DNA of 64,000 nucleotides from Acidobacteriota bacterium (GCA_947467605.1 CANIII010000009.1:78626-142625); one strand, 5' to 3'. Shown: positions 11,301-25,580, counted from the first letter of the stretch. Notes: generated by a model not told the origin, from the sequence alone. Translations and numbers: made by a program.

Positions 11301-11323
11301 CGATTGCCTCTATTATGGCCCGT

Positions 11324-12037
11324 ATGCCTGCTCCTCGTCTCTCGATCACCTGGCTCGGCCACGCCACGTTTGTCATCGGCTTGCCCAACGGCACCCGCAT
11401 TCTTCTGGACCCCTGGCTGGGCAACCCGAAGTGCCCGCCGGCGTTGTCGAAGCCGGATGCGCTCAAGCCCATCGACCTGATTCTGGTCACGCACGGTCAC
11501 AGCGATCACCTGACGGATGTGGTCTCGTCGCATCGGGCGACGGGCGCGCCGATTGTCGCGCCGTACGAACTGGCGTTGTACTTGAAAGGGCAAGGGGTTC
11601 AGGGAGTGCTCGAGATGAACATCGGCGGCACACAGGATGCCGCGGGTGTGCGCATCACGATGACGCAGTCGACGCACTCGAGTTCAACGATGGCGGACGG
11701 GCATCTCGTGTATCTCGGGCCGTCGGCCGGCTACATCCTGCGCGCGCCGGATGTGCCGACGATCTACATCTCGGGGGATACCGGTCTCTTCGGTGACATG
11801 AAGATGATCGGTGAACTCTACCGACCGCAGATCGCTTTTCTCCCGATAGGCGATCTCTACACGATGGGCCCCGACACCGCCGCGATTGCTGCGCAGTGGC
11901 TCAACGTACGACAAGTCGTGCCCATGCATTGGGGGACGTTCGGTGCGCTGACAGGGACCCCAGCCGCGCTGAAGGCGCTGCTCGATCCGCACAATATTGA
12001 AGTGCTGGAAATCGCGCCGGGCGAAACCGCGCGCTAG
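11324..12037 (+). CDS. UlaG-like metal-dependent hydrolase (MBL fold)
   Basis: ITWLGHATFVI, VTHGHSDH, MHWGTFGAL; ATG 11324 preferred over 11315, which lies inside the apparent -10 box. Confidence 0.9.
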   Translation: MPAPRLSITWLGHATFVIGLPNGTRILLDPWLGNPKCPPALSKPDALKPIDLILVTHGHSDHLTDVVSSHRATGAPIVAPYELALYLKGQGVQGVLEMNIGGTQDAAGVRITMTQSTHSSSTMADGHLVYLGPSAGYILRAPDVPTIYISGDTGLFGDMKMIGELYRPQIAFLPIGDLYTMGPDTAAIAAQWLNVRQVVPMHWGTFGALTGTPAALKALLDPHNIEVLEIAPGETAR

Positions 12038-15203: not shown

Positions 15204-15947
15204 CTACGTCGCGAGTCGCTCAAACACGCGTTCGGCGGACTGCGGCACGGTGAGGCCCGCGGTGTCGATCGTCATATCGGCTTTCGCATACAGGGCTTCG
15301 CGGCTCGTGACGAGGTCACGCAGCGCTTCGCGCGCCTGCGGATGCTGGCGCATGGGACGACGATCGCCTTGTTTCATGACGCGATCCCAATAGTCGGAGG
15401 GGCGCGCGCGCAACCAGATGGTGGTCGTGGTGTGGCGGAGCAGCGTGAAGGACTCGGGCGATGTCACGAGGCCGCCGCCAACCGCGATGACCATCGGCGC
15501 AGGGGCGTTCAGGAGTTCTGCGAGCACGTCGTGCTCGACCTTGCGGTAGTACTGCTCGCCATGGAGCGAGAAGATCTCACCAAGCGCGAGGCCCGCGCGT
15601 TCTTCAATCTTCCGGTCGAGCTCAACGAAGGGCACATGCATTCGCCGCGCAAGCCGCTTGCCGATCGATGTCTTACCCGCGCCGCGCAGGCCGAGGAGCG
15701 CGATGGGCTTCGACTGCGCGTGCGTCGTCGTGGTCGTGACCAGCTCCGCCGGCGTCGTCGCCAGCGCATCGGCGAGATGGGCGAGGCGACGCACGGAAAT
15801 GTTTGCGCGCCCCGACTCGACATCCATCAAAAACCGCGTCGACAGACCCGACGTCTCCGCGAGCGCGCGGAGCGTCAGCCCGCGCGATTGCCGCAGGTCA
15901 CGGGCGCGCTGACCAAGAGTCTCGAGGAGGGCAGAGGCGGCATCCAT
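15204..15947 (-). CDS. boxR: BoxR/BzdR-type regulator: XRE HTH plus shikimate-kinase-like domain
   Basis: HTH RARDLRQSRGLTLRALAETSGLSTRFLMDVESGRANISVRRL fused to kinase-like GLRGAGKTSIGKRLA...FVELDRKIEE; divergent from boxCB. Confidence 0.9.
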   Translation of the reverse strand: MDAASALLETLGQRARDLRQSRGLTLRALAETSGLSTRFLMDVESGRANISVRRLAHLADALATTPAELVTTTTTHAQSKPIALLGLRGAGKTSIGKRLARRMHVPFVELDRKIEERAGLALGEIFSLHGEQYYRKVEHDVLAELLNAPAPMVIAVGGGLVTSPESFTLLRHTTTTIWLRARPSDYWDRVMKQGDRRPMRQHPQAREALRDLVTSREALYAKADMTIDTAGLTVPQSAERVFERLAT

Positions 15948-15967
15948 ATGAGAGAAGCAATGTGCAG

Positions 15968-16046: not shown

Positions 16047-17708
16047 ATGGCTACAGCTGTCTCGAAAATCGGCCCCCTGTCGTTTGAAACAGATCCCGGC
16101 AAATATCGTCATTGGAAGCTCACCTTTGATGGCCCGGTGGCGACGCTGGGGATGGATGTGCAGGAAGACGGCGGCCTGTCGCCCGACTACAAGCTCAAGC
16201 TCAACTCGTACGACCTCGGCGTCGACATCGAGCTCAACGACGCCCTGCAGCGCATTCGGTTCGAACATCCGGAAACGCATACGGTCGTCATCACCAGCTT
16301 GCGCGAGCGGATCTTCTGTGCCGGCGCGAACATCTTCATGCTGCGCGGCTCCACGCATGCCTGGAAGGTCAACTTCTGCAAGTTCACGAACGAGACGCGC
16401 TGCAGCATGGAAGACTCGAGCGCACACTCGGGTATCAAGTTTCTGGCTGCACTGAACGGGATTTGCGCAGGTGGCGGTTACGAACTTGCGCTGGCCTGCG
16501 ATGAGATCGTGCTTGTCGACGATTCGAATTCTGCCGTGAGCCTGCCGGAAACCGCGCTCCTCGCTGTGCTCCCCGGCACCGGCGGCCTCACCCGCGTCGT
16601 TGACAAACGCAAAGTGCGCCGTGACTTGGCCGATATCTTCGGCACTCTGGCCGAAGGCGTGAAGGGCAAGCGCGCGGTGGAATGGCGCCTGGTCGACGCG
16701 GTCTATCCGCTGAGCAAGTTCAAGGATGCGGTGAAGGAACGCGCGCTGAAGATGGCGCAGTCATCCGACCGCCCGACGAGCGGTCCCGGCGTCACGCTCA
16801 CGCCGTTGAACGCGCAGGTCGCCGAGAGCGGCAGTGTGGAGTATTCATCGGTCTCGCTGACCGTCGATCGCGCGAAACGCACGGCCACGATCATCGTCCG
16901 CGCCCCGCAGGCGGCGGTCGAGTCCTCGGTGGATGCAATCATGGCCGCCGGCGCCGAGTTCTGGCCGCTGCGCGTGTTCCGCGAACTCGAAGATGTGATT
17001 CTGCGCCTGCGCACGAATGAGCCGGAAGTCGGCACCGTGGTGCTGAAGGCTGAAGGTGATCCCGCGCTCGTCATGCAGGCCGACGAGGTGCTCCTCGCGA
17101 ACAAGGATCATTGGTTCGTGCGAGAGACGATCCACTTCATCAAGCGCACTCTCAAACGTGTCGACCTGACGGCGCGCAGCTTCTTCGCGATCATCGAACC
17201 GGGCAACGCGTTCGCCGGCACGCTCTTCGAGCTCGCCCTGGCCGCCGATCGGTCCTACATGTTGAATGACGACGACCAGGCGAACCGGATTCAGCTGTCG
17301 CCGGTCAACGCCGGCCTCTATCCGATGAGCAACGACATCACGCGACTGCAAGCCCGCTTCTACGGCGAACCGGCCAAGGTCGGTGAAGTCCTCGCGCATG
17401 ATGGCGCATTTGATCCGACCGAGGCCGACGAGGCGGGGCTCGTCACATCGGCGCCCGATTCTATTGATTGGGACGACGAAGTGCGCATGGCGATCGAAAC
17501 CCGCGCGACTCTGTCGCCCGATGCACTGACCGGCATGGAAGCGAACCTGCGCTTCGTGGGGCCAGAGACGATGGAGACGCGCATCTTCGGCCGACTGACC
17601 GCGTGGCAGAACTGGATCTTCCAGCGCCCGAACGCCGTCGGCCCGAAAGGTGCGCTCACGTCATACGGCACGTCGGACCGCGCTGAATTCGATTTTGGTA
17701 GAACGTAA
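16047..17708 (+). CDS. boxC: 2,3-epoxybenzoyl-CoA dihydrolase (benzoyl-CoA-dihydrodiol lyase)
   Basis: About 553 aa crotonase-like protein with FCAGANIFMLRGSTHAWKVNFCKFTNETR and NGICAGGGYELALACDEI, characteristic of BoxC. Confidence 0.95.
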   Translation: MATAVSKIGPLSFETDPGKYRHWKLTFDGPVATLGMDVQEDGGLSPDYKLKLNSYDLGVDIELNDALQRIRFEHPETHTVVITSLRERIFCAGANIFMLRGSTHAWKVNFCKFTNETRCSMEDSSAHSGIKFLAALNGICAGGGYELALACDEIVLVDDSNSAVSLPETALLAVLPGTGGLTRVVDKRKVRRDLADIFGTLAEGVKGKRAVEWRLVDAVYPLSKFKDAVKERALKMAQSSDRPTSGPGVTLTPLNAQVAESGSVEYSSVSLTVDRAKRTATIIVRAPQAAVESSVDAIMAAGAEFWPLRVFRELEDVILRLRTNEPEVGTVVLKAEGDPALVMQADEVLLANKDHWFVRETIHFIKRTLKRVDLTARSFFAIIEPGNAFAGTLFELALAADRSYMLNDDDQANRIQLSPVNAGLYPMSNDITRLQARFYGEPAKVGEVLAHDGAFDPTEADEAGLVTSAPDSIDWDDEVRMAIETRATLSPDALTGMEANLRFVGPETMETRIFGRLTAWQNWIFQRPNAVGPKGALTSYGTSDRAEFDFGRT

Positions 17709-17726: not shown

Positions 17727-19151
17727 ATGATCTCCGCTGAGAAAATTCCCAATAACGTCGACCTCCATATGAACAAGCGCCTGCAGCGGGCGCTGGAGCA
17801 TTGGCAGCCGGCCTACATTCAGTGGTGGAAGGACATGGGCCCGCAGGGGTTTCAGCACTACCACCAGGTGTATGTCCGCACGGCCATCAGCGTGGATTCT
17901 GCCGGGTGGGCGCACTTCGAGTACGTGAAGTTGCCCGAGTACCGATGGGGCATCTTCCTCGCCGATCCGGTGGTCAACCGCACGATCGGCTTTGGCGATT
18001 TCTACGGTCAGCCCGTCTGGCAGGAAGTCCCCGGCGAGTTCCGCAATCAGCTCCGTCGTCTGATCGTGACGCAGGGCGATACAGAGCCCGCGAGCGTCGA
18101 ACAGCAGCGGTGGCTCGGCCATCGGTGCCCGAGCCTGTACGACTTGCGCAACCTGTTTCAGGTGAACGTCGAAGAGGGCCGTCATCTCTGGGCGATGGTC
18201 TATCTGCTGCATTCGTACTTCGGCCGCGACGGCCGTGACGAAGCCGAAGATCTGCTCGCGCGCCAGAGTGGCAATCGCGACAAGCCCCGCATTCTTGATG
18301 CATTCAACGAGCCGATCGACACGTGGCTCGACTTCTTCATGTTTACGATGTTTACGGACCGCGACGGCAAGAGCCAGCTGCTGTCGCTCTCGGAGAGTTC
18401 GCTCGATCCGTTGTCGCGGACCACGCGATTCATGCTGACCGAAGAGGCGCATCACATGTTTGTCGGCGAAACGGGCATCACCCGCATCGTCAAGCGCACC
18501 GCCGAATTGATGCGGAGCGAAGAGATCGGTTTCTCGGGCGACGTACGGAAGCTCGGCGGCATTGACCTTGACATGATTCAGCGCCACATCAATCTGTGGT
18601 TCTCGCTGAGCCTCGACCTACACGGCAACGAGATCTCGACCAACGCGGCGGCGTATTTCTCGAATGGCCTGAAGGGTCGCGCCGAAGAAGACAAGTGGTC
18701 GGAACATCGAGTGATTGAAGACATCTACAAGCTCGAGGCGGTGGAGAACGGCGAGGTCAAGAAGATCGACGTGCCGATGCGCAATGCCATGAACGAAGTG
18801 CTGCGCGACTGGTATGTCGACGATTGTCTCGGCGGCATTGGCCGGTGGAACAAGGTGCTCGAGGACCATGGCCTGTCGGATCGCTTGAAGCTGCCGGATC
18901 GGAAGTTCAATCGAGGGATTGGGCAGTACGCCGACGTGCACTTCACGCCGGACGGAAGCTACCTCACGAAGGAAGAATGGGCGCGACGGAAGCACGAGTG
19001 GCTACCGACGCCAGCCGACAAGATCTACTTGCTCAGCATCATGAATACCCCGATCTACGAGCCGGGCAAGTTCGCGAACTACATTGCTCCGCCAACGCGA
19101 GGCGTCAAGGGCCGCCCGATCGACTTCGAATACGTCAGGACGGAAATGTGA
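17727..19151 (+). CDS. boxB: Benzoyl-CoA 2,3-epoxidase, diiron oxygenase component
   Basis: NNVDLHMNKRLQRALEHWQPAYIQWWKDMGP; diiron motifs EEGRH and TEEAHHMFVGETG. Confidence 0.96.
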   Translation: MISAEKIPNNVDLHMNKRLQRALEHWQPAYIQWWKDMGPQGFQHYHQVYVRTAISVDSAGWAHFEYVKLPEYRWGIFLADPVVNRTIGFGDFYGQPVWQEVPGEFRNQLRRLIVTQGDTEPASVEQQRWLGHRCPSLYDLRNLFQVNVEEGRHLWAMVYLLHSYFGRDGRDEAEDLLARQSGNRDKPRILDAFNEPIDTWLDFFMFTMFTDRDGKSQLLSLSESSLDPLSRTTRFMLTEEAHHMFVGETGITRIVKRTAELMRSEEIGFSGDVRKLGGIDLDMIQRHINLWFSLSLDLHGNEISTNAAAYFSNGLKGRAEEDKWSEHRVIEDIYKLEAVENGEVKKIDVPMRNAMNEVLRDWYVDDCLGGIGRWNKVLEDHGLSDRLKLPDRKFNRGIGQYADVHFTPDGSYLTKEEWARRKHEWLPTPADKIYLLSIMNTPIYEPGKFANYIAPPTRGVKGRPIDFEYVRTEM

Positions 19152-19942
19152 AGATCCAGACCGACGTGCGCAGTGGTGTGGCAGTGTTGCGGCTGAATGA
19201 CCCGCCGGCGAATACCTATAGCTACGAGATGATGCGTGAGCTGGACGCCGCGATTCTTGACGCCCGCATGAATCGTGATGTGCATGTGATCGTGCTGATT
19301 GGCGCGGGCGAGAAGTTCTTCTGCGCCGGCGCGAACATCGGCATGCTCAAGGATGCGGATCCGGAGTTCAAGTACTACTTCTGCCTCCATGCCAATGAAA
19401 CACTCGGCCGCCTGGAACAGACGCCGAAACTCGTGATCGCCGCGCTCAACGGCCATACCGTGGGCGGCGGTCTGGAGGTCGCGATGGCAGCGGACCTCCG
19501 CATCGCGAAGAAGGACGCCGGCAAGATCGGCCTGCCGGAAGTCTCCCTCGGCGTCTTGCCCGGCACGGGCGGCACGCAGCGTCTCGCACGGCTCGTCGGT
19601 AAGTCACGCGCGATCGACCTCATGATTCACGGCAAGCTGATGTCGATGGACGATGCGGCGACCATCGGGTTGATCAACGAAGTGTGGGGCGAGGCCGAAC
19701 TGAACGGCCGGTCCTTTGAAGACGCCATCATCGACTACGCGACACAGTTCGTGCCGCCGAACAAGGCGAGCCGCGCCGTCGGCCGCATCAAGCGCGCCGT
19801 CATCTCGGGCCTCGAAGCCGGATTCAGCGAAGGCCTTGCCATGGAACGCGAAATGCAGCAGCTGCTATTTGAGAGCGACGATGCCAGAGAAGGCATCGCC
19901 GCGAGTCTCGAAAAACGCAAGGCGAAGTTCACGGGGCAGTAA
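19148..19942 (+). CDS. Enoyl-CoA hydratase/isomerase
   Basis: GTG start overlapping boxB stop (ATGTGA); FFCAGANIGML, NGHTVGGGLEVAMAADLRIA, PGTGGTQRL. Confidence 0.92.
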   Translation: MKIQTDVRSGVAVLRLNDPPANTYSYEMMRELDAAILDARMNRDVHVIVLIGAGEKFFCAGANIGMLKDADPEFKYYFCLHANETLGRLEQTPKLVIAALNGHTVGGGLEVAMAADLRIAKKDAGKIGLPEVSLGVLPGTGGTQRLARLVGKSRAIDLMIHGKLMSMDDAATIGLINEVWGEAELNGRSFEDAIIDYATQFVPPNKASRAVGRIKRAVISGLEAGFSEGLAMEREMQQLLFESDDAREGIAASLEKRKAKFTGQ

Positions 19943-19947
19943 GGACA

Positions 19948-19985
19948 CCGACAGATTTTCAAAGAGTTCTTTGAAAACCTGTCGG
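19948..19985. repeat. Strong intra-operonic hairpin
   Basis: CCGACAGATTTTCAAAGA-GT-TCTTTGAAAACCTGTCGG, 17 of 18 pairs. Confidence 0.85.
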
Positions 19986-20045
19986 GTCTGATCTTGCTCT
20001 CCCCATGGCCCCCCATGGCCCTCCATGTTGAGAGGTTTTGTGACA

Positions 20046-21494
20046 ATGATGCTCGGCAAAAAGCAGCTCCTGATCAATGGCGAATGGCGCGATGCGTCCA
20101 CGGGCAAGACGATGCCGGTGATCAATCCAGCAACCGAGGAAGTGATCGCGGAGGTCGCGAATGCGTCGGTCGAGGATGTTGATGCGGCGGTGACATCCGC
20201 CCGAGCAGCGTTTGAGGGGCCGTGGGCGAAGATCTCGGCCCGCGAGCGAGGGCGCTTGCTGTGGAAGCTCGGCGAGCGGCTGATGGAGCACGCCGACGAG
20301 GTCGCGAAGCTCGAGACGCTGCACAACGGCAAGCCGATCTTTGAGTCGCGGCAGATCGAGATTCCGATGTCGGCCGAGTGCTTGCAGTATTTCGCCGGCT
20401 GGGCGGACAAGGTGCACGGCGAGACCGTGCCGGTGAAGGGGAACGCGCTCGTCTACACACGACGCGAGCCGCTCGGTGTGGTGGCAGCCATCGTGCCGTG
20501 GAATTTTCCGTTGATGCTCGCCGTGTGGAAGGTTGCGCCGGCATTGGCGATGGGTAATACCGTCGTGCTGAAGCCGGCGAGCCAGACGCCGCTGACGGCG
20601 CTGGCGCTCGGCCAGATGGCGCTCGATGTTGGATTTCCTCCCGGCGTGCTCAACGTCATCACCGGCAGTGGATCGACGTGCGGTCAGGCGATCGTGGAGC
20701 ATCCTGGCATCGACAAGATTGCGTTCACCGGTGACACGTCAACCGGTAAGGGCATCATGCGGAGCGCGGCGGAAACGATCAAGCATGTGACGCTCGAGCT
20801 CGGCGGGAAGTCGCCGAACATTGTGTTCGCCGATGCTGATATCGAGTCTGCCGTGCGGGGCGCGACGGTCGGCATCTTCTACGGCAAGGGTGAAGTCTGC
20901 GCAGCCGGTTCGCGTCTGCTGGTAGAGGCGTCGATCAAAGATCAGTTCCTGGAGAAAGTGGCGGCGCGTACGAAGAAGATGAGCGTCGGCGATCCGATGG
21001 ATCCGAAGACGCGCTTCGGCGCACTGTCGTCCAAGTCGCACTTTGAGCGCGTGCTCGGCTACGTCGAGACCGCGAAGCAGGAAGGTGCCACGTTGCTCGC
21101 CGGTGGTGAGCGCGCGGACATCGGGACGGGCAAGGGCTACTTCATGCAGCCCACGGTGTTTGGCAATGTCACCACCGACATGACGATCGCGAAGGAAGAG
21201 ATCTTCGGGCCGGTACTCGCGGCCATCGAATTCGCTGACGTCGAGGATGCGATCGCCATCGCCAACAACTCGATCTACGGTCTGGCGGCGGGCATCTGGA
21301 CCAAAGACATCAAGAAAGCCCACTATGTGGCGGCAAAGTTGAAGGCCGGCACGGTGTGGGTGAACACCTACAACGTCTATGACACGGCCATGTCGTTCGG
21401 CGGCTACAAGCAGAGCGGCTTCGGCCGGGAAATGGGCATGCACGCGCTCGACTACTACACGCAGCTCAAGAGCGTGTGGGTGGATCTGAACTAG
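20046..21494 (+). CDS. NAD(P)-dependent aldehyde dehydrogenase, generic superfamily type
   Basis: VPWNFPLMLAVWKVAPALAMGN, FTGDTSTGKGI, LELGGKSPNIVFADAD, catalytic GEVCAAGSRLLVE. Confidence 0.93.
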   Translation: MMLGKKQLLINGEWRDASTGKTMPVINPATEEVIAEVANASVEDVDAAVTSARAAFEGPWAKISARERGRLLWKLGERLMEHADEVAKLETLHNGKPIFESRQIEIPMSAECLQYFAGWADKVHGETVPVKGNALVYTRREPLGVVAAIVPWNFPLMLAVWKVAPALAMGNTVVLKPASQTPLTALALGQMALDVGFPPGVLNVITGSGSTCGQAIVEHPGIDKIAFTGDTSTGKGIMRSAAETIKHVTLELGGKSPNIVFADADIESAVRGATVGIFYGKGEVCAAGSRLLVEASIKDQFLEKVAARTKKMSVGDPMDPKTRFGALSSKSHFERVLGYVETAKQEGATLLAGGERADIGTGKGYFMQPTVFGNVTTDMTIAKEEIFGPVLAAIEFADVEDAIAIANNSIYGLAAGIWTKDIKKAHYVAAKLKAGTVWVNTYNVYDTAMSFGGYKQSGFGREMGMHALDYYTQLKSVWVDLN

Positions 21495-22351
21495 TGACGC
21501 CTGTCATCGACGTCCACATCCACGTCCAGCCCTTTCACATGATGAAGCCGGACGTCCGCGAGACGTTCTGGAAGGGCAAGAAGGATCGTGCGGGTCTTGA
21601 GGCGTTGGCGGAGGATCCGAAAAGGCTCCTTGCGCAGATGGATGTCGACGGCATCGAGCAGGTTGGGCTCATCAACTACGTCAGTCCGGATCTGATGGGT
21701 TTCACGGACGACTGCAACGAGTGGATTCTGAAATATGCCTCGGCGGCGCCGGATCGGCTGTTGGCGTTTGGGTCCGTGCACCCGGGTTTCACGGACGACG
21801 TGGCCGGACGGGCATCACAACTCGTCGACAAGGGCGTGCGGGCGTTCAAAGTGCATCCACCGCATCAGCAGTTTGAAGCCAACGCCTATCTCGGTCCGCT
21901 GCCGCAGCTGTCGGAGTTGTATCAGGTGGCACAGGATGCCGGGCTGCCGGTCACTGTTCATACCGGGACGTCAATCTTCCCGGGTGCGCGAAGCCGGCTC
22001 GGTAATCCGATGGACGTCGATGACGTGGCCGTGGACTTTCCGAAGTTGAAGATCCTCCTCGCGCATGGCGGTCGTCCGCTGTGGATGGAAGAGGCGTTCT
22101 TTGTTGTGCGCCGGCATCCGAATGTGTTTCTCGAGTTGTCGGGGATTCCGCCGCAGCGTCTGCTTGAGTGGTTTCCGCGCCTCGAGGAACTGGCCCCGAA
22201 GACGGTGTGGGGCACCGACTGGCCGAGCCCAGGCATTTCGTCGTTGCGCAAGAACGTCGATGAATTTCTGACCTTGCCGCTCAGTGATGCAGCGAAGTCG
22301 GCGATCCTGCACGAGAATGCGCGCCGTGTGTTTTCTTCCGTGAAACGGTAA
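21494..22351 (+). CDS. Amidohydrolase family 2 (ACMSD-like TIM barrel)
   Basis: GTG start overlapping upstream TAG; VIDVHIHVQP, AFKVHPPH, VHTGTS, ILLAHGG, WGTDWPSPG. Confidence 0.85.
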   Translation: MTPVIDVHIHVQPFHMMKPDVRETFWKGKKDRAGLEALAEDPKRLLAQMDVDGIEQVGLINYVSPDLMGFTDDCNEWILKYASAAPDRLLAFGSVHPGFTDDVAGRASQLVDKGVRAFKVHPPHQQFEANAYLGPLPQLSELYQVAQDAGLPVTVHTGTSIFPGARSRLGNPMDVDDVAVDFPKLKILLAHGGRPLWMEEAFFVVRRHPNVFLELSGIPPQRLLEWFPRLEELAPKTVWGTDWPSPGISSLRKNVDEFLTLPLSDAAKSAILHENARRVFSSVKR

Positions 22352-23554
22352 ATGTCCGCATCGTTGCGCGCCGGCTGGCGCGACGGTCTGTTGGCGTGGA
22401 GCCTCTGCTTCGCCCCCCGGCTTGCGTTGTTCGTGGCCGCTTGGCCGACCGTGCGGCTCGACAGCTCGAGTGTGCAGTTTCTGAACGGCACGCTGATCAC
22501 CGACCTCAGCACGCCGATGTGGCCGCCGGCCTACGAAGCGTTCGCCGAAGTGCTGTGGCGTCTCGTAGGCGGCAATCTGTTTGCGTTCGGCGTCGGACAT
22601 CTGGCGGTGCACGCGCTGGTGGGCGTCTTCGTCCTGAGCGTCTGCCGCTCGTTGCAATTGTCGATGCGCGCGAGTTGGCTGGCGGTGCTGGCGACGGCGC
22701 TGCTGCCGTACTACGTCTCGGCGTCGATCACGCAGGTGGACATCGGCGTGCTGGTATCGGTCGCGGCCGCATTCACTGCGGCCATGTGCCGCTGGCGGCT
22801 GTCGCAGCCGCGCCCGTCGCACATCCTTTCGACGGGTGCGATGGCCATGCTGCTGTTTCTCACGCGGGCCAATGCGCTGACGATGATTGTCGCTGTGTAT
22901 GCGGTGGTCCTCTACCGCCCGGGTCATCAGCAGCGCCGGAACGTGCTCGCCTCGGCAGCCGTCCTGCTGGTGTTGCTCTGTGTGTGGAGCACGGTGACGG
23001 AGATCCGCTTCGGCGCATTTACGCCGTTCCCGGCGAATGTGGGATCGAATCTTTGGGTCGGCAACCACACAGGCGTGGAGGTGACGCTCGCGAGCCGGTC
23101 GTTTAACCCGACTGACGTGTCAGGGCCGCAGCCGCCCAGTGATCCGTTCTATGACGCCGATGCTGTGGCCACCCGCGCGGCAAAGGAGTTCATGTGGGCC
23201 CACCCGGGCGAAACGGTCATGAATGCGGTTCGCAAGGGCCGGCGGTACTTTGACTGGCGCCTCGACGCGCTCAATCCGCATTCCACGCTGCAGGAGTGGG
23301 CGTATTCGGCGCCGTACCTGCTGATGTTGGTGCTGGGGGCCGTGGGCGCGCGAGAGTGCTGGCGGACCAATCGGGTCGCCGTGGCGGTGATCAGCGCCGT
23401 CGTATTCGGCTACCTGGCACCGCATCTGGTGGCCTACGGGATGATTCGACATCGGATGTCCGTGGAGTGGGCCATGCTGATCATGGCGGCCGTCGGCGCG
23501 GATGTGTTGGCGCGCGCGGCCTCGACGACATATTCTCTACGTCTCGATGACTGA
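22352..23554 (+). CDS. Multi-pass membrane protein, possible GT-C-type glycosyltransferase
   Basis: Many hydrophobic segments; overall arrangement (WPPAYE, LFLTRANALT) suggests dolichyl-phosphate-mannose-type GT-C. Confidence 0.6.
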   Translation: MSASLRAGWRDGLLAWSLCFAPRLALFVAAWPTVRLDSSSVQFLNGTLITDLSTPMWPPAYEAFAEVLWRLVGGNLFAFGVGHLAVHALVGVFVLSVCRSLQLSMRASWLAVLATALLPYYVSASITQVDIGVLVSVAAAFTAAMCRWRLSQPRPSHILSTGAMAMLLFLTRANALTMIVAVYAVVLYRPGHQQRRNVLASAAVLLVLLCVWSTVTEIRFGAFTPFPANVGSNLWVGNHTGVEVTLASRSFNPTDVSGPQPPSDPFYDADAVATRAAKEFMWAHPGETVMNAVRKGRRYFDWRLDALNPHSTLQEWAYSAPYLLMLVLGAVGARECWRTNRVAVAVISAVVFGYLAPHLVAYGMIRHRMSVEWAMLIMAAVGADVLARAASTTYSLRLDD

Positions 23555-24716
23555 CGGCCTGCTCGCCTGGCGCGCTGAATTCCCAATTCTTGAGACCTGC
23601 ACGTACCTGGTCAGTCATTCGCTGGGGGCCATGCCGCGCGGGGTGCGCGACGAATTGCGCCAGTTTGCTGATGAATGGGACCACCGCGGCGTCCGAGCGT
23701 GGCATGAAGGCTGGTGGGAACTCGGCCGCGAAACCGGCAATCTGCTCGCACCGATCCTTGGCGTGGCGCGCGACACGATCACCATGCATCAGAACGCGAC
23801 CGTCGCTCAGCTCATCGCCGCGTCGTGTCTCTCGTTTGATGGTCCCCGCCGGAAGATCGTGCTGCAGGATCTCGATTTTCCGACCAACCACTACCTGTTC
23901 GAAGGGTTCCGACGGCAGGGGGCGGAGATCATCTATGTGCCGTCCGACAATCGCGTGCGCGCGCCGATCGATCGGCTCGTCGATGCGATCGATGAACAGA
24001 CGGCGCTTGTGCCGATCTCGCTGGTCCTGTTCCGTAGCGCGTGCCTGCAGGACGTCCGCGCCGTTATCGAGAAAGCGCATCGCGTCGGCGCGCTCGTCAT
24101 TCTCGACATCTATCAGGCCGCCGGCACCATTCCCCTCGATCTCGCTGCGCTCAACACCGACTTTGCCGTCGGCGGATCCGTGAAGTGGCTCTGCGGCGGT
24201 CCGGGCGCCGGCTACCTCTATGTGCGGCCGGATCTGATTCCTCGACTCAAGCCCGCCAACGTAGGATGGGCGGGCCACGCGTCGCCGTTTGGATTTGAAA
24301 CCGGCGAGATTCGCTACGCCGAGGGTGTCGAGCGCTTCCAGAGCGGCACGCCGAACATTCCCGCGCTGTACTCCGCGCGCGCCGGCTACAAGATCGTTGG
24401 CCAGATCGGCGTGACCGCGATTCGAGAGAAATCGTTGCGCTTGACTCGGCGCTTGATGGATGCCGCCGCGCAGCACGGCTGGGCGCTCAATACGCCGGAT
24501 CGCGACGCGGAACGCGGGGGCTCGGTCGTCATCGACGTGCCGAACGGCGCGGCCGTCACTCAGCAACTGATTGCGCGTGGTGTGATCGTCGATCACCGGC
24601 CCGATGCCGGCATCCGTATGGCGCCGCATTTCTATTCCACCGCTGATGAAGTGGATGAAGCGGTGGAACTGCTCGAAGAGCTTTCAACCGTGAAGCACGT
24701 GACGGACGTGAAGTAG
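23547..24716 (+). CDS. Kynureninase-like PLP-dependent enzyme (aminotransferase class V fold)
   Basis: GSVKWLCGGPGAGYLYVRPDL lysine region and VDHRPDAGIRMAPHFYSTADEVD C-terminus typical of the kynureninase branch. Confidence 0.8.
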   Translation: MTDGLLAWRAEFPILETCTYLVSHSLGAMPRGVRDELRQFADEWDHRGVRAWHEGWWELGRETGNLLAPILGVARDTITMHQNATVAQLIAASCLSFDGPRRKIVLQDLDFPTNHYLFEGFRRQGAEIIYVPSDNRVRAPIDRLVDAIDEQTALVPISLVLFRSACLQDVRAVIEKAHRVGALVILDIYQAAGTIPLDLAALNTDFAVGGSVKWLCGGPGAGYLYVRPDLIPRLKPANVGWAGHASPFGFETGEIRYAEGVERFQSGTPNIPALYSARAGYKIVGQIGVTAIREKSLRLTRRLMDAAAQHGWALNTPDRDAERGGSVVIDVPNGAAVTQQLIARGVIVDHRPDAGIRMAPHFYSTADEVDEAVELLEELSTVKHVTDVK

Positions 24717-24728
24717 GATTTTCGAAAA

Positions 24729-25580
24729 ATGATGAAGATACAGACAGTGACCGTGCTTGGCGCCGGGACGATGGGGCATGGGATTGCCCATGGGGCGATC
24801 ACCTCAGGATTTGAGACACGGCTCTTCGATGTGTCGGACGTGCAGCTGGCCAAGGCGCGCGGTCAGATCGAAGCGATTCTCAAGAAGAGTGTCGAGCTCG
24901 GCAAGCTGGCGACCAACGACGTCGATGCCGCGATGTCGCGATTGACCACCACCTCCGATGTCGGGTCTGCGCTCGCCGGTACGGAGTTTGTGATTGAGGC
25001 CGCGCCTGAGAAGGTCGACCTCAAGGTGAAACTCTTTGCTGACATCGAAGCCCACGCGCCCGCCACGGCCGTCGTCGCCACGAATACTTCGGCGCTGAGC
25101 ATCACAGAGATCGCCGGCACGCTGTCGCAGCCGTCACGCGTCGGCGGCATGCACTTCTTCAATCCCGTGCACAAGATGAAACTCATCGAGATCGTCCGTG
25201 CGCTGGAAAGCAGCGAGGCGACGCTCGAGACCATCGAGGCCGTGTCGCGTGCGATGGGGAAAGAGACGGTGCTCGTGCGCGAGGCGCCGGGCTTCATCAC
25301 GACACGGGTCAACGCGTCGATCGGCAACGAGGCGTTCTACATGCTCATGGAAGGTGTAGCGTCCGCATGTGATATCGACAAGGCCTTGAAGCTCGGGCTG
25401 AATCATCCGATGGGGCCGTTCGAGCTCGTCGATCTGGTCGGGCTCGACACGCGGTTGAGCATCCTGGAGTATTTGCACAAAAGCATGGGCGAAAAGTACC
25501 GGCCGTGTCCATTGCTCGCGCAGTATGTGAAGGCTGGCCGGCTGGGCAAGAAAGTGGGCAGGGGGGTCTATGAGTACTGA
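24729..25580 (+). CDS. 3-hydroxyacyl-CoA (3-hydroxybutyryl-CoA-type) dehydrogenase
   Basis: VTVLGAGTMGHGIAH Rossmann motif; GGMHFFNPVHKMKLIEIV; NHPMGPFELVDLVGLDT. Confidence 0.95.
   Translation: MMKIQTVTVLGAGTMGHGIAHGAITSGFETRLFDVSDVQLAKARGQIEAILKKSVELGKLATNDVDAAMSRLTTTSDVGSALAGTEFVIEAAPEKVDLKVKLFADIEAHAPATAVVATNTSALSITEIAGTLSQPSRVGGMHFFNPVHKMKLIEIVRALESSEATLETIEAVSRAMGKETVLVREAPGFITTRVNASIGNEAFYMLMEGVASACDIDKALKLGLNHPMGPFELVDLVGLDTRLSILEYLHKSMGEKYRPCPLLAQYVKAGRLGKKVGRGVYEY

Follow-up and report, generated by a model that had tools for sequence, protein, structure and literature searches.

The DNA analyzed here (the window; 64,000 nucleotides, one strand, from an Acidobacteriota bacterium) harbors a conserved box-operon variant, apparently undescribed so far, in which a gene for a PLP enzyme of the kynureninase family lies downstream of boxC and boxB. 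It is possible, and is proposed here tentatively, that the box operon took in a kynureninase-family enzyme from outside the standard clade, which kept kynureninase chemistry and whose released acid is coupled to aromatic-acid breakdown.

Organization of the Operon

The host genome comprises 3.66 Mb on 32 contigs and is ∼94% complete. The operon runs in the order boxC-boxB-ECH-ALDH-amidohydrolase-membrane protein-PLP enzyme-HCDH, all genes being co-directional (plus strand) and overlapping or closely spaced; every gene named in the original prediction was found in that order on the same strand. The boxC (2,3-epoxybenzoyl-CoA dihydrolase, 16047–17708) and boxB (benzoyl-CoA 2,3-epoxidase diiron subunit, 17727–19151) products were identified as equivalogs, matching TIGR03222 with 867.6 bits (cut-off 712.3) and TIGR03225 with 735.7 bits (cut-off 499.1). 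The enoyl-CoA hydratase-type protein (ECH, 19148–19942; ECH_1, E = 5.9e-51) has a GTG start at 19148 that, as read from the sequence, overlaps the boxB stop. It is followed by an aldehyde dehydrogenase (ALDH, 20025–21494; Aldedh, E = 5e-190), an accessory metal-dependent hydrolase of the Amidohydro_2 type (21476–22351; PF04909, E = 5e-38), a multi-pass membrane protein (22352–23554) with weak PMT_2 (GT-C) similarity (PF13231, E = 0.002, below cut-off), the kynureninase-family PLP enzyme (23547–24716, 389 aa; KYNU_C and Aminotran_5 above cut-off), and a 3-hydroxyacyl-CoA dehydrogenase (HCDH, 24729–25580; 3HCDH_N, E = 1.3e-57). The ORF of the PLP gene opens at 23502, and the ATG at 23547, giving an 8-base overlap with the membrane-protein gene, is the likelier start. 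Just upstream of the operon, in divergent orientation, lies a boxR-type regulator with a helix-turn-helix and a shikimate-kinase fold (15204–15950, minus strand, start approximate; HTH_31/HTH_3 and SKI in Pfam), tblastn homologues of which adjoin boxC in most relatives. The gene order is not due to chance, as many other members of the host's order share it.

The ECH and ALDH genes are separated by 82 bases holding a strong hairpin (19948–19985; 18-nt arms, 94% complementary, fold z-score −5.0), a possible processing or partial termination site judging from its predicted fold, and a single transcript for the whole operon is therefore not certain. The corresponding gap in a genome of the same genus (L074:1836–1930) is palindromic too, but differs in sequence.

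Family and Active-Site Residues of the PLP Enzyme

The best PDB match of the PLP enzyme was the Pseudomonas fluorescens kynureninase 1qz9 (E = 6.5e-52), the best cysteine desulfurase reaching only ∼2e-16; on these scores, assignment as a cysteine desulfurase or epimerase was ruled out, and the predicted kinship with kynureninase rather than with those groups was upheld. KYNU_C (PF22580) was found with 65 bits (cut-off 27). With the curated kynureninase model TIGR01814, the enzyme scored 147.5 bits against a cut-off of 246.4, and its whole clade fell under that value, whereas standard kynureninases in 13 relatives scored 287–474 bits. The label "kynureninase-like" thus holds at the family level and not at that of the curated model: by sequence, the protein is a kynureninase-family enzyme, yet not a standard kynureninase. 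Its named relatives include an Acidobacteria MAG protein (54% identity), in keeping with a probable origin of the genome in the order Vicinamibacterales of the Acidobacteriota. A quick maximum-likelihood tree set the PLP clade apart from standard kynureninases (SH-aLRT 99), with long branches meeting at the base and an uncertain deep placement. An AlphaFold model built with three sequences had a pLDDT of 51 and was left out of the evidence.

In P. fluorescens kynureninase numbering, the enzyme keeps Ser36, Phe129, Asp201, Lys227 (the PLP lysine), Trp256, Thr282, and Arg375 (substrate carboxylate), and Lys227, Asp201, Trp256, Phe129, and Arg375 are conserved across its clade. Asp132 is replaced by Asn, His204 by Gln, and Tyr226, which touches the aniline ring in MD simulations (PMC11704957), by Val. 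A loss of kynureninase residues, named beforehand as an observation that would count against the prediction, was accordingly found at these three positions and not at the five conserved ones. His204→Gln, Cys224→Gly, Tyr228→Trp, and Pro380→His were clade-wide (60 of 60 members compared). Compared with KynU (EC 3.7.1.3), therefore, the enzyme shares the fold-type I PLP family, KYNU_C, the PLP lysine, Asp201, Trp256, Arg375, and 1qz9 as best match, and differs in its score below the curated cut-off, its three replaced residues, and its separate clade.

Linkage of the PLP Gene to boxCB in Related Genomes

The box-linked branch, defined as copies at least 58% identical to the PLP enzyme of the window, formed a single clade (SH-aLRT 100), inside which five copies without box neighbours are nested, and was confined to the host's order in the genomes sampled. 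A PLP gene of this branch was present in 26 of 100 genomes of the order, and 20 of these 26 also had BoxB (Fisher p = 7e-5, kinship not corrected). The PLP gene and boxB lay on one contig in 15 genomes across five families, 14 bp to 22 kb apart; in the other five genomes with both, they were on separate contigs of fragmented assemblies. The PLP gene directly followed boxB in three genomes of two families, and in three families (f1, f3, and f15) the arrangement was boxC-boxB-(ECH)-ALDH-(amidohydrolase)-PLP-HCDH, in some cases with extra inserted genes. The check on conservation of gene order that was proposed with the original prediction thus came out positive, the box linkage being kept across several families. 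The dependence of the PLP gene on box genes is not absolute, as the PLP gene is retained in the absence of box genes in Luteitalea-like genomes and in G019. G016 and G028, which are complete or nearly complete genomes, keep it and have neither TDO (tryptophan 2,3-dioxygenase) nor BoxB.

The PLP Clade in Tryptophan Clusters of the Phylum

Members of the PLP clade (E ≤ 1e-60) were found in 81 of 396 genomes and 63 of 211 genera of the phylum, and 40 of these loci were fetched for neighbour analysis. TDO lay within ∼2.3 kb of the PLP-clade gene in 17 of the 40, and such loci usually held homologues of the ECH of 2-aminobenzoyl-CoA clusters, a flavin monooxygenase, or an aromatic CoA ligase; an aromatic-type amino-acid permease was near the gene in five of the fetched loci. 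The TDO-linked copies also lack Asp132, His204, and Tyr226. As TDO and 2-aminobenzoyl-CoA-pathway genes adjoin them, the likely chemistry of this branch is kynurenine cleavage, and since it is the sister of the box-linked branch, the chemistry of the clade is probably that of kynureninase. The box branch differs from the TDO branch by further changes, e.g., His173→Leu and Leu279→Gln. Members of the clade without His204 and Tyr226 occur in tryptophan/2-aminobenzoyl-CoA clusters of many phylum families (L152–L190, e.g., L154:4557–11441), where they probably replace standard kynureninase. Such clusters of other phylum families, in which the sister PLP branch is accompanied by TDO, a ligase, ECH, and a flavin monooxygenase, resemble known anthranilate degradation through 2-aminobenzoyl-CoA (PMC4539516). 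In the host genome, the genes for ring attack that neighbour the PLP gene are boxCB instead, and ligase and monooxygenase were not found.

Genome G092, with a clade member ∼8 kb from TDO, was not counted as evidence for kynureninase function because a second PLP protein of the His/Tyr type directly follows TDO there. At L067:15699–16856, TDO is directly followed by a distant protein of the kynureninase type that has His204 and Tyr226 and matched no NCBIfam model at E ≤ 1e-20.

A search for TDO elsewhere in the host genome, proposed with the original prediction, located it on another contig, unlinked to the operon. TDO-family proteins were present in 13 of 26 box-branch genomes versus 16 of 74 others (p = 0.01, kinship not corrected). 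A short TDO-like protein (L120:2384–3094, L119:2955–3620) is encoded by 11 of the 100 genomes, of which nine carry a box-branch PLP gene and two do not; on reading the alignment, a loop region is missing and His and Arg motifs are kept, which we take to be, by role, the heme-His, the Arg, and the second His. No KynB-type formamidase, the formamidase family searched, was found in the host genome (∼94% complete). The 2-aminobenzoyl-CoA monooxygenase domain was likewise not found there, apart from an OYE-type half match, and neither the flavin monooxygenase/reductase nor the ligase of that route was found (no TIGR02262 match above cut-off).

BoxB, BoxC, and the Possible Supply of an Aromatic Acid

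BoxB matched the Azoarcus evansii structure (PDB 3per) over nearly its full length (E = 2.5e-179), and its iron ligands and the residues described as forming the benzoyl pocket (PMC5489048) are conserved. The pocket residues were essentially invariant in 36 BoxB sequences, PLP-linked or not, and because the pocket is unchanged, there is no sign of BoxB adaptation to a 2-amino ring. A shift in BoxB/BoxC specificity between PLP-linked and ligase-linked operons was also considered and rejected, as the BoxB differences were few and outside the pocket residues. A kynurenine/anthranilate route in which BoxB/BoxC epoxidation receives 2-aminobenzoate from the kynureninase-like enzyme, or obtains the CoA ester from it directly, is in our estimation improbable.

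The BoxA reductase (TIGR03224, E ≤ 1e-40) was absent from all 100 genomes (the host and 99 relatives), whereas BoxB was above cut-off in 41; BoxB in these genomes therefore probably uses a reductase other than BoxA, as far as model searches can tell. With TIGR02262 (benzoate-CoA ligase; cut-off 375 bits), no protein of the host genome scored above 244 bits, the three highest matches being fatty-acid, malonyl-type, and acetate ligases, and no benzoate- or anthranilate-type aromatic-acid-CoA ligase was found in this ∼94% complete genome. The absence is not specific, as the ligase is missing as well from several genomes that have box genes but no PLP gene. The operon thus shares with the box pathway of Azoarcus/Aromatoleum evansii the boxR, boxC, and boxB genes, the iron ligands and benzoyl pocket of BoxB, and, in the lower part of the pathway, ECH and HCDH, and differs from it in the lack of BoxA in the genomes searched and of a benzoate-CoA ligase in the host genome, in a generic ALDH in the expected place of BoxD, and in the kynureninase-family gene inside the operon.

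A working kynureninase could have no more than regulation in common with the box operon; its anthranilate would then return to tryptophan or be excreted, and the box enzymes would act on benzoyl-CoA alone, e.g., from phenylpropanoid β-oxidation. The identity of the BoxB pocket to that of benzoyl-CoA epoxidases is consistent with this, as are the presence of ECH and HCDH, the frequent lack of a ligase also where the box operon has no PLP gene, and the missing aromatic-acid ligase, which fits a box route fed by acyl-CoA β-oxidation. Shared regulation leaves the place of the PLP gene beside boxCB in five families unexplained, however, including its position directly after boxB in three genomes and a linkage that holds even without ECH, ALDH, and amidohydrolase; we regard it as rather unlikely.

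Alternatively, the box-linked branch may have left kynureninase chemistry, cleaving another amino-keto acid or using CoA instead of water, and such thiolysis would yield aroyl-CoA directly and account for the missing ligase. The enzyme 2-amino-4-ketopentanoate thiolase, also a PLP enzyme, is a precedent for thiolysis. The clade-wide loss of Asp132, His204, and Tyr226 and the changes specific to the box branch, such as those of His173 and Leu279, point in this direction, as does the distribution of the benzoate-CoA-ligase family, present in one of the 20 genomes that combine the PLP gene with BoxB versus 10 of the 23 that have BoxB but no such PLP gene (p = 0.005, kinship not corrected). The TDO-linked sister branch, however, has the same three losses and is often beside a ligase, as expected of a hydrolase, and no CoA-binding feature was noted in the enzyme; the departure from kynureninase chemistry appears unlikely.

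Accessory Genes and the Originally Predicted 3-Hydroxyanthranilate Branch

The ALDH fits no specific BoxD model, its closest models being of the betaine-aldehyde type. A copy 75% identical to it is found in box operons that do not contain the PLP gene in G092 and G096 (where it adjoins benzoate-CoA ligase) and also in G049, on account of which the ALDH is, on sequence grounds, a probable functional stand-in for BoxD; the alternative of an aminomuconate-semialdehyde dehydrogenase was rejected for the same reason. Box operons with no PLP gene contain ECH and HCDH too, and HCDH is directly downstream of the PLP gene in nearly all box-linked loci. The amidohydrolase is present in some box-linked operons only, with its metal-type residues (H14, H16, H162, H197, and D248) invariant in seven box-linked copies. 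It matched the uncharacterised structure 3irs, and no ACMSD structure was among its PDB matches up to E = 5, so that the predicted ACMSD-like label is valid for no more than shared membership in the broad Amidohydro_2 superfamily. For the membrane protein, no homologue was found in the relatives' loci searched; such a protein with weak glycosyltransferase (PMT_2) similarity was seen only in the host genome. Elsewhere in the window, 11315–12037 encodes a metal-dependent hydrolase of the PRK00685 type, and ligase-type box operons have a protein matching this model encoded between their boxB and ALDH genes (L128:8390–9091).

Superficially, the enzyme classes fit a 3-hydroxyanthranilate/2-aminomuconate branch within the operon, made up of kynureninase, ACMSD, and aminomuconate-semialdehyde dehydrogenase. 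The search for 3-hydroxyanthranilate 3,4-dioxygenase (3-HAO, PF06052) that had been proposed gave no hit in the host genome or in any genome with a box-branch copy, and in the host's order 3-HAO accompanies standard kynureninases (G035, G061). With an amidohydrolase unlike ACMSD, an ALDH that belongs to box operons having no PLP gene, and no aminomuconate enzymes found, the likeness to the ACMSD branch is limited to the amidohydrolase superfamily and an ALDH, and this reading is largely refuted and highly improbable. The pathway originally predicted was thus half right, retaining the kynureninase kinship and the box linkage and losing its ACMSD/3-hydroxyanthranilate part.

Proposed Function and Significance

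From the gene identities, the family assignment, the residue changes, and the conserved linkage, all of which are observed, we infer a substrate, a hydrolytic activity, and an entry of the product into the box route. In the proposed coupling, the PLP enzyme would most likely hydrolyse L-kynurenine or a close aroyl-alanine, giving alanine and an aromatic acid that would enter the box route as such or as the CoA ester. BoxB, with a reductase other than BoxA, would epoxidise the CoA-bound ring, BoxC would open it, the ALDH would oxidise the semialdehyde, and ECH and HCDH would take the chain towards 3-oxoadipyl-CoA. The proposal as a whole is favoured by the kinship with 1qz9, the kept residues, the TDO-linked sister branch, the co-occurrence with BoxB, and the TDO in the genome; against it stand the replaced Asp132, His204, and Tyr226, the unchanged BoxB pocket, the ligase, KynB, and monooxygenase that were not found, G016 and G028, and the unlinked TDO.

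Among 5.39 million open papers, none was found to name kynureninase, benzoyl-CoA, and boxB together; kynureninase and benzoyl-CoA co-occur in two, one reviewing aromatic amino acids and the other dealing with the rumen. Four aerobic routes of anthranilate degradation are described, via catechol, gentisate, 3-hydroxyanthranilate, and 2-aminobenzoyl-CoA (PMC4539516), epoxidation not being among them, and BoxB/BoxC epoxidation of a 2-aminobenzoyl unit, if true, would be a fifth. The thiolytic version, if true, would add to the kynureninase family a reaction new to it.

The operon arrangement is genuine and conserved, and it hints at a new connection between the degradation of amino acids and that of aromatic rings. 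If functional, the inferred biochemical coupling would link aromatics derived from amino acids with ring opening of the epoxide type, in a bacterial phylum that is widespread. Regardless of the coupling, the phylum appears to use, within tryptophan clusters, a kynureninase clade without typical residues including Tyr226, which makes the roles of these residues directly testable.
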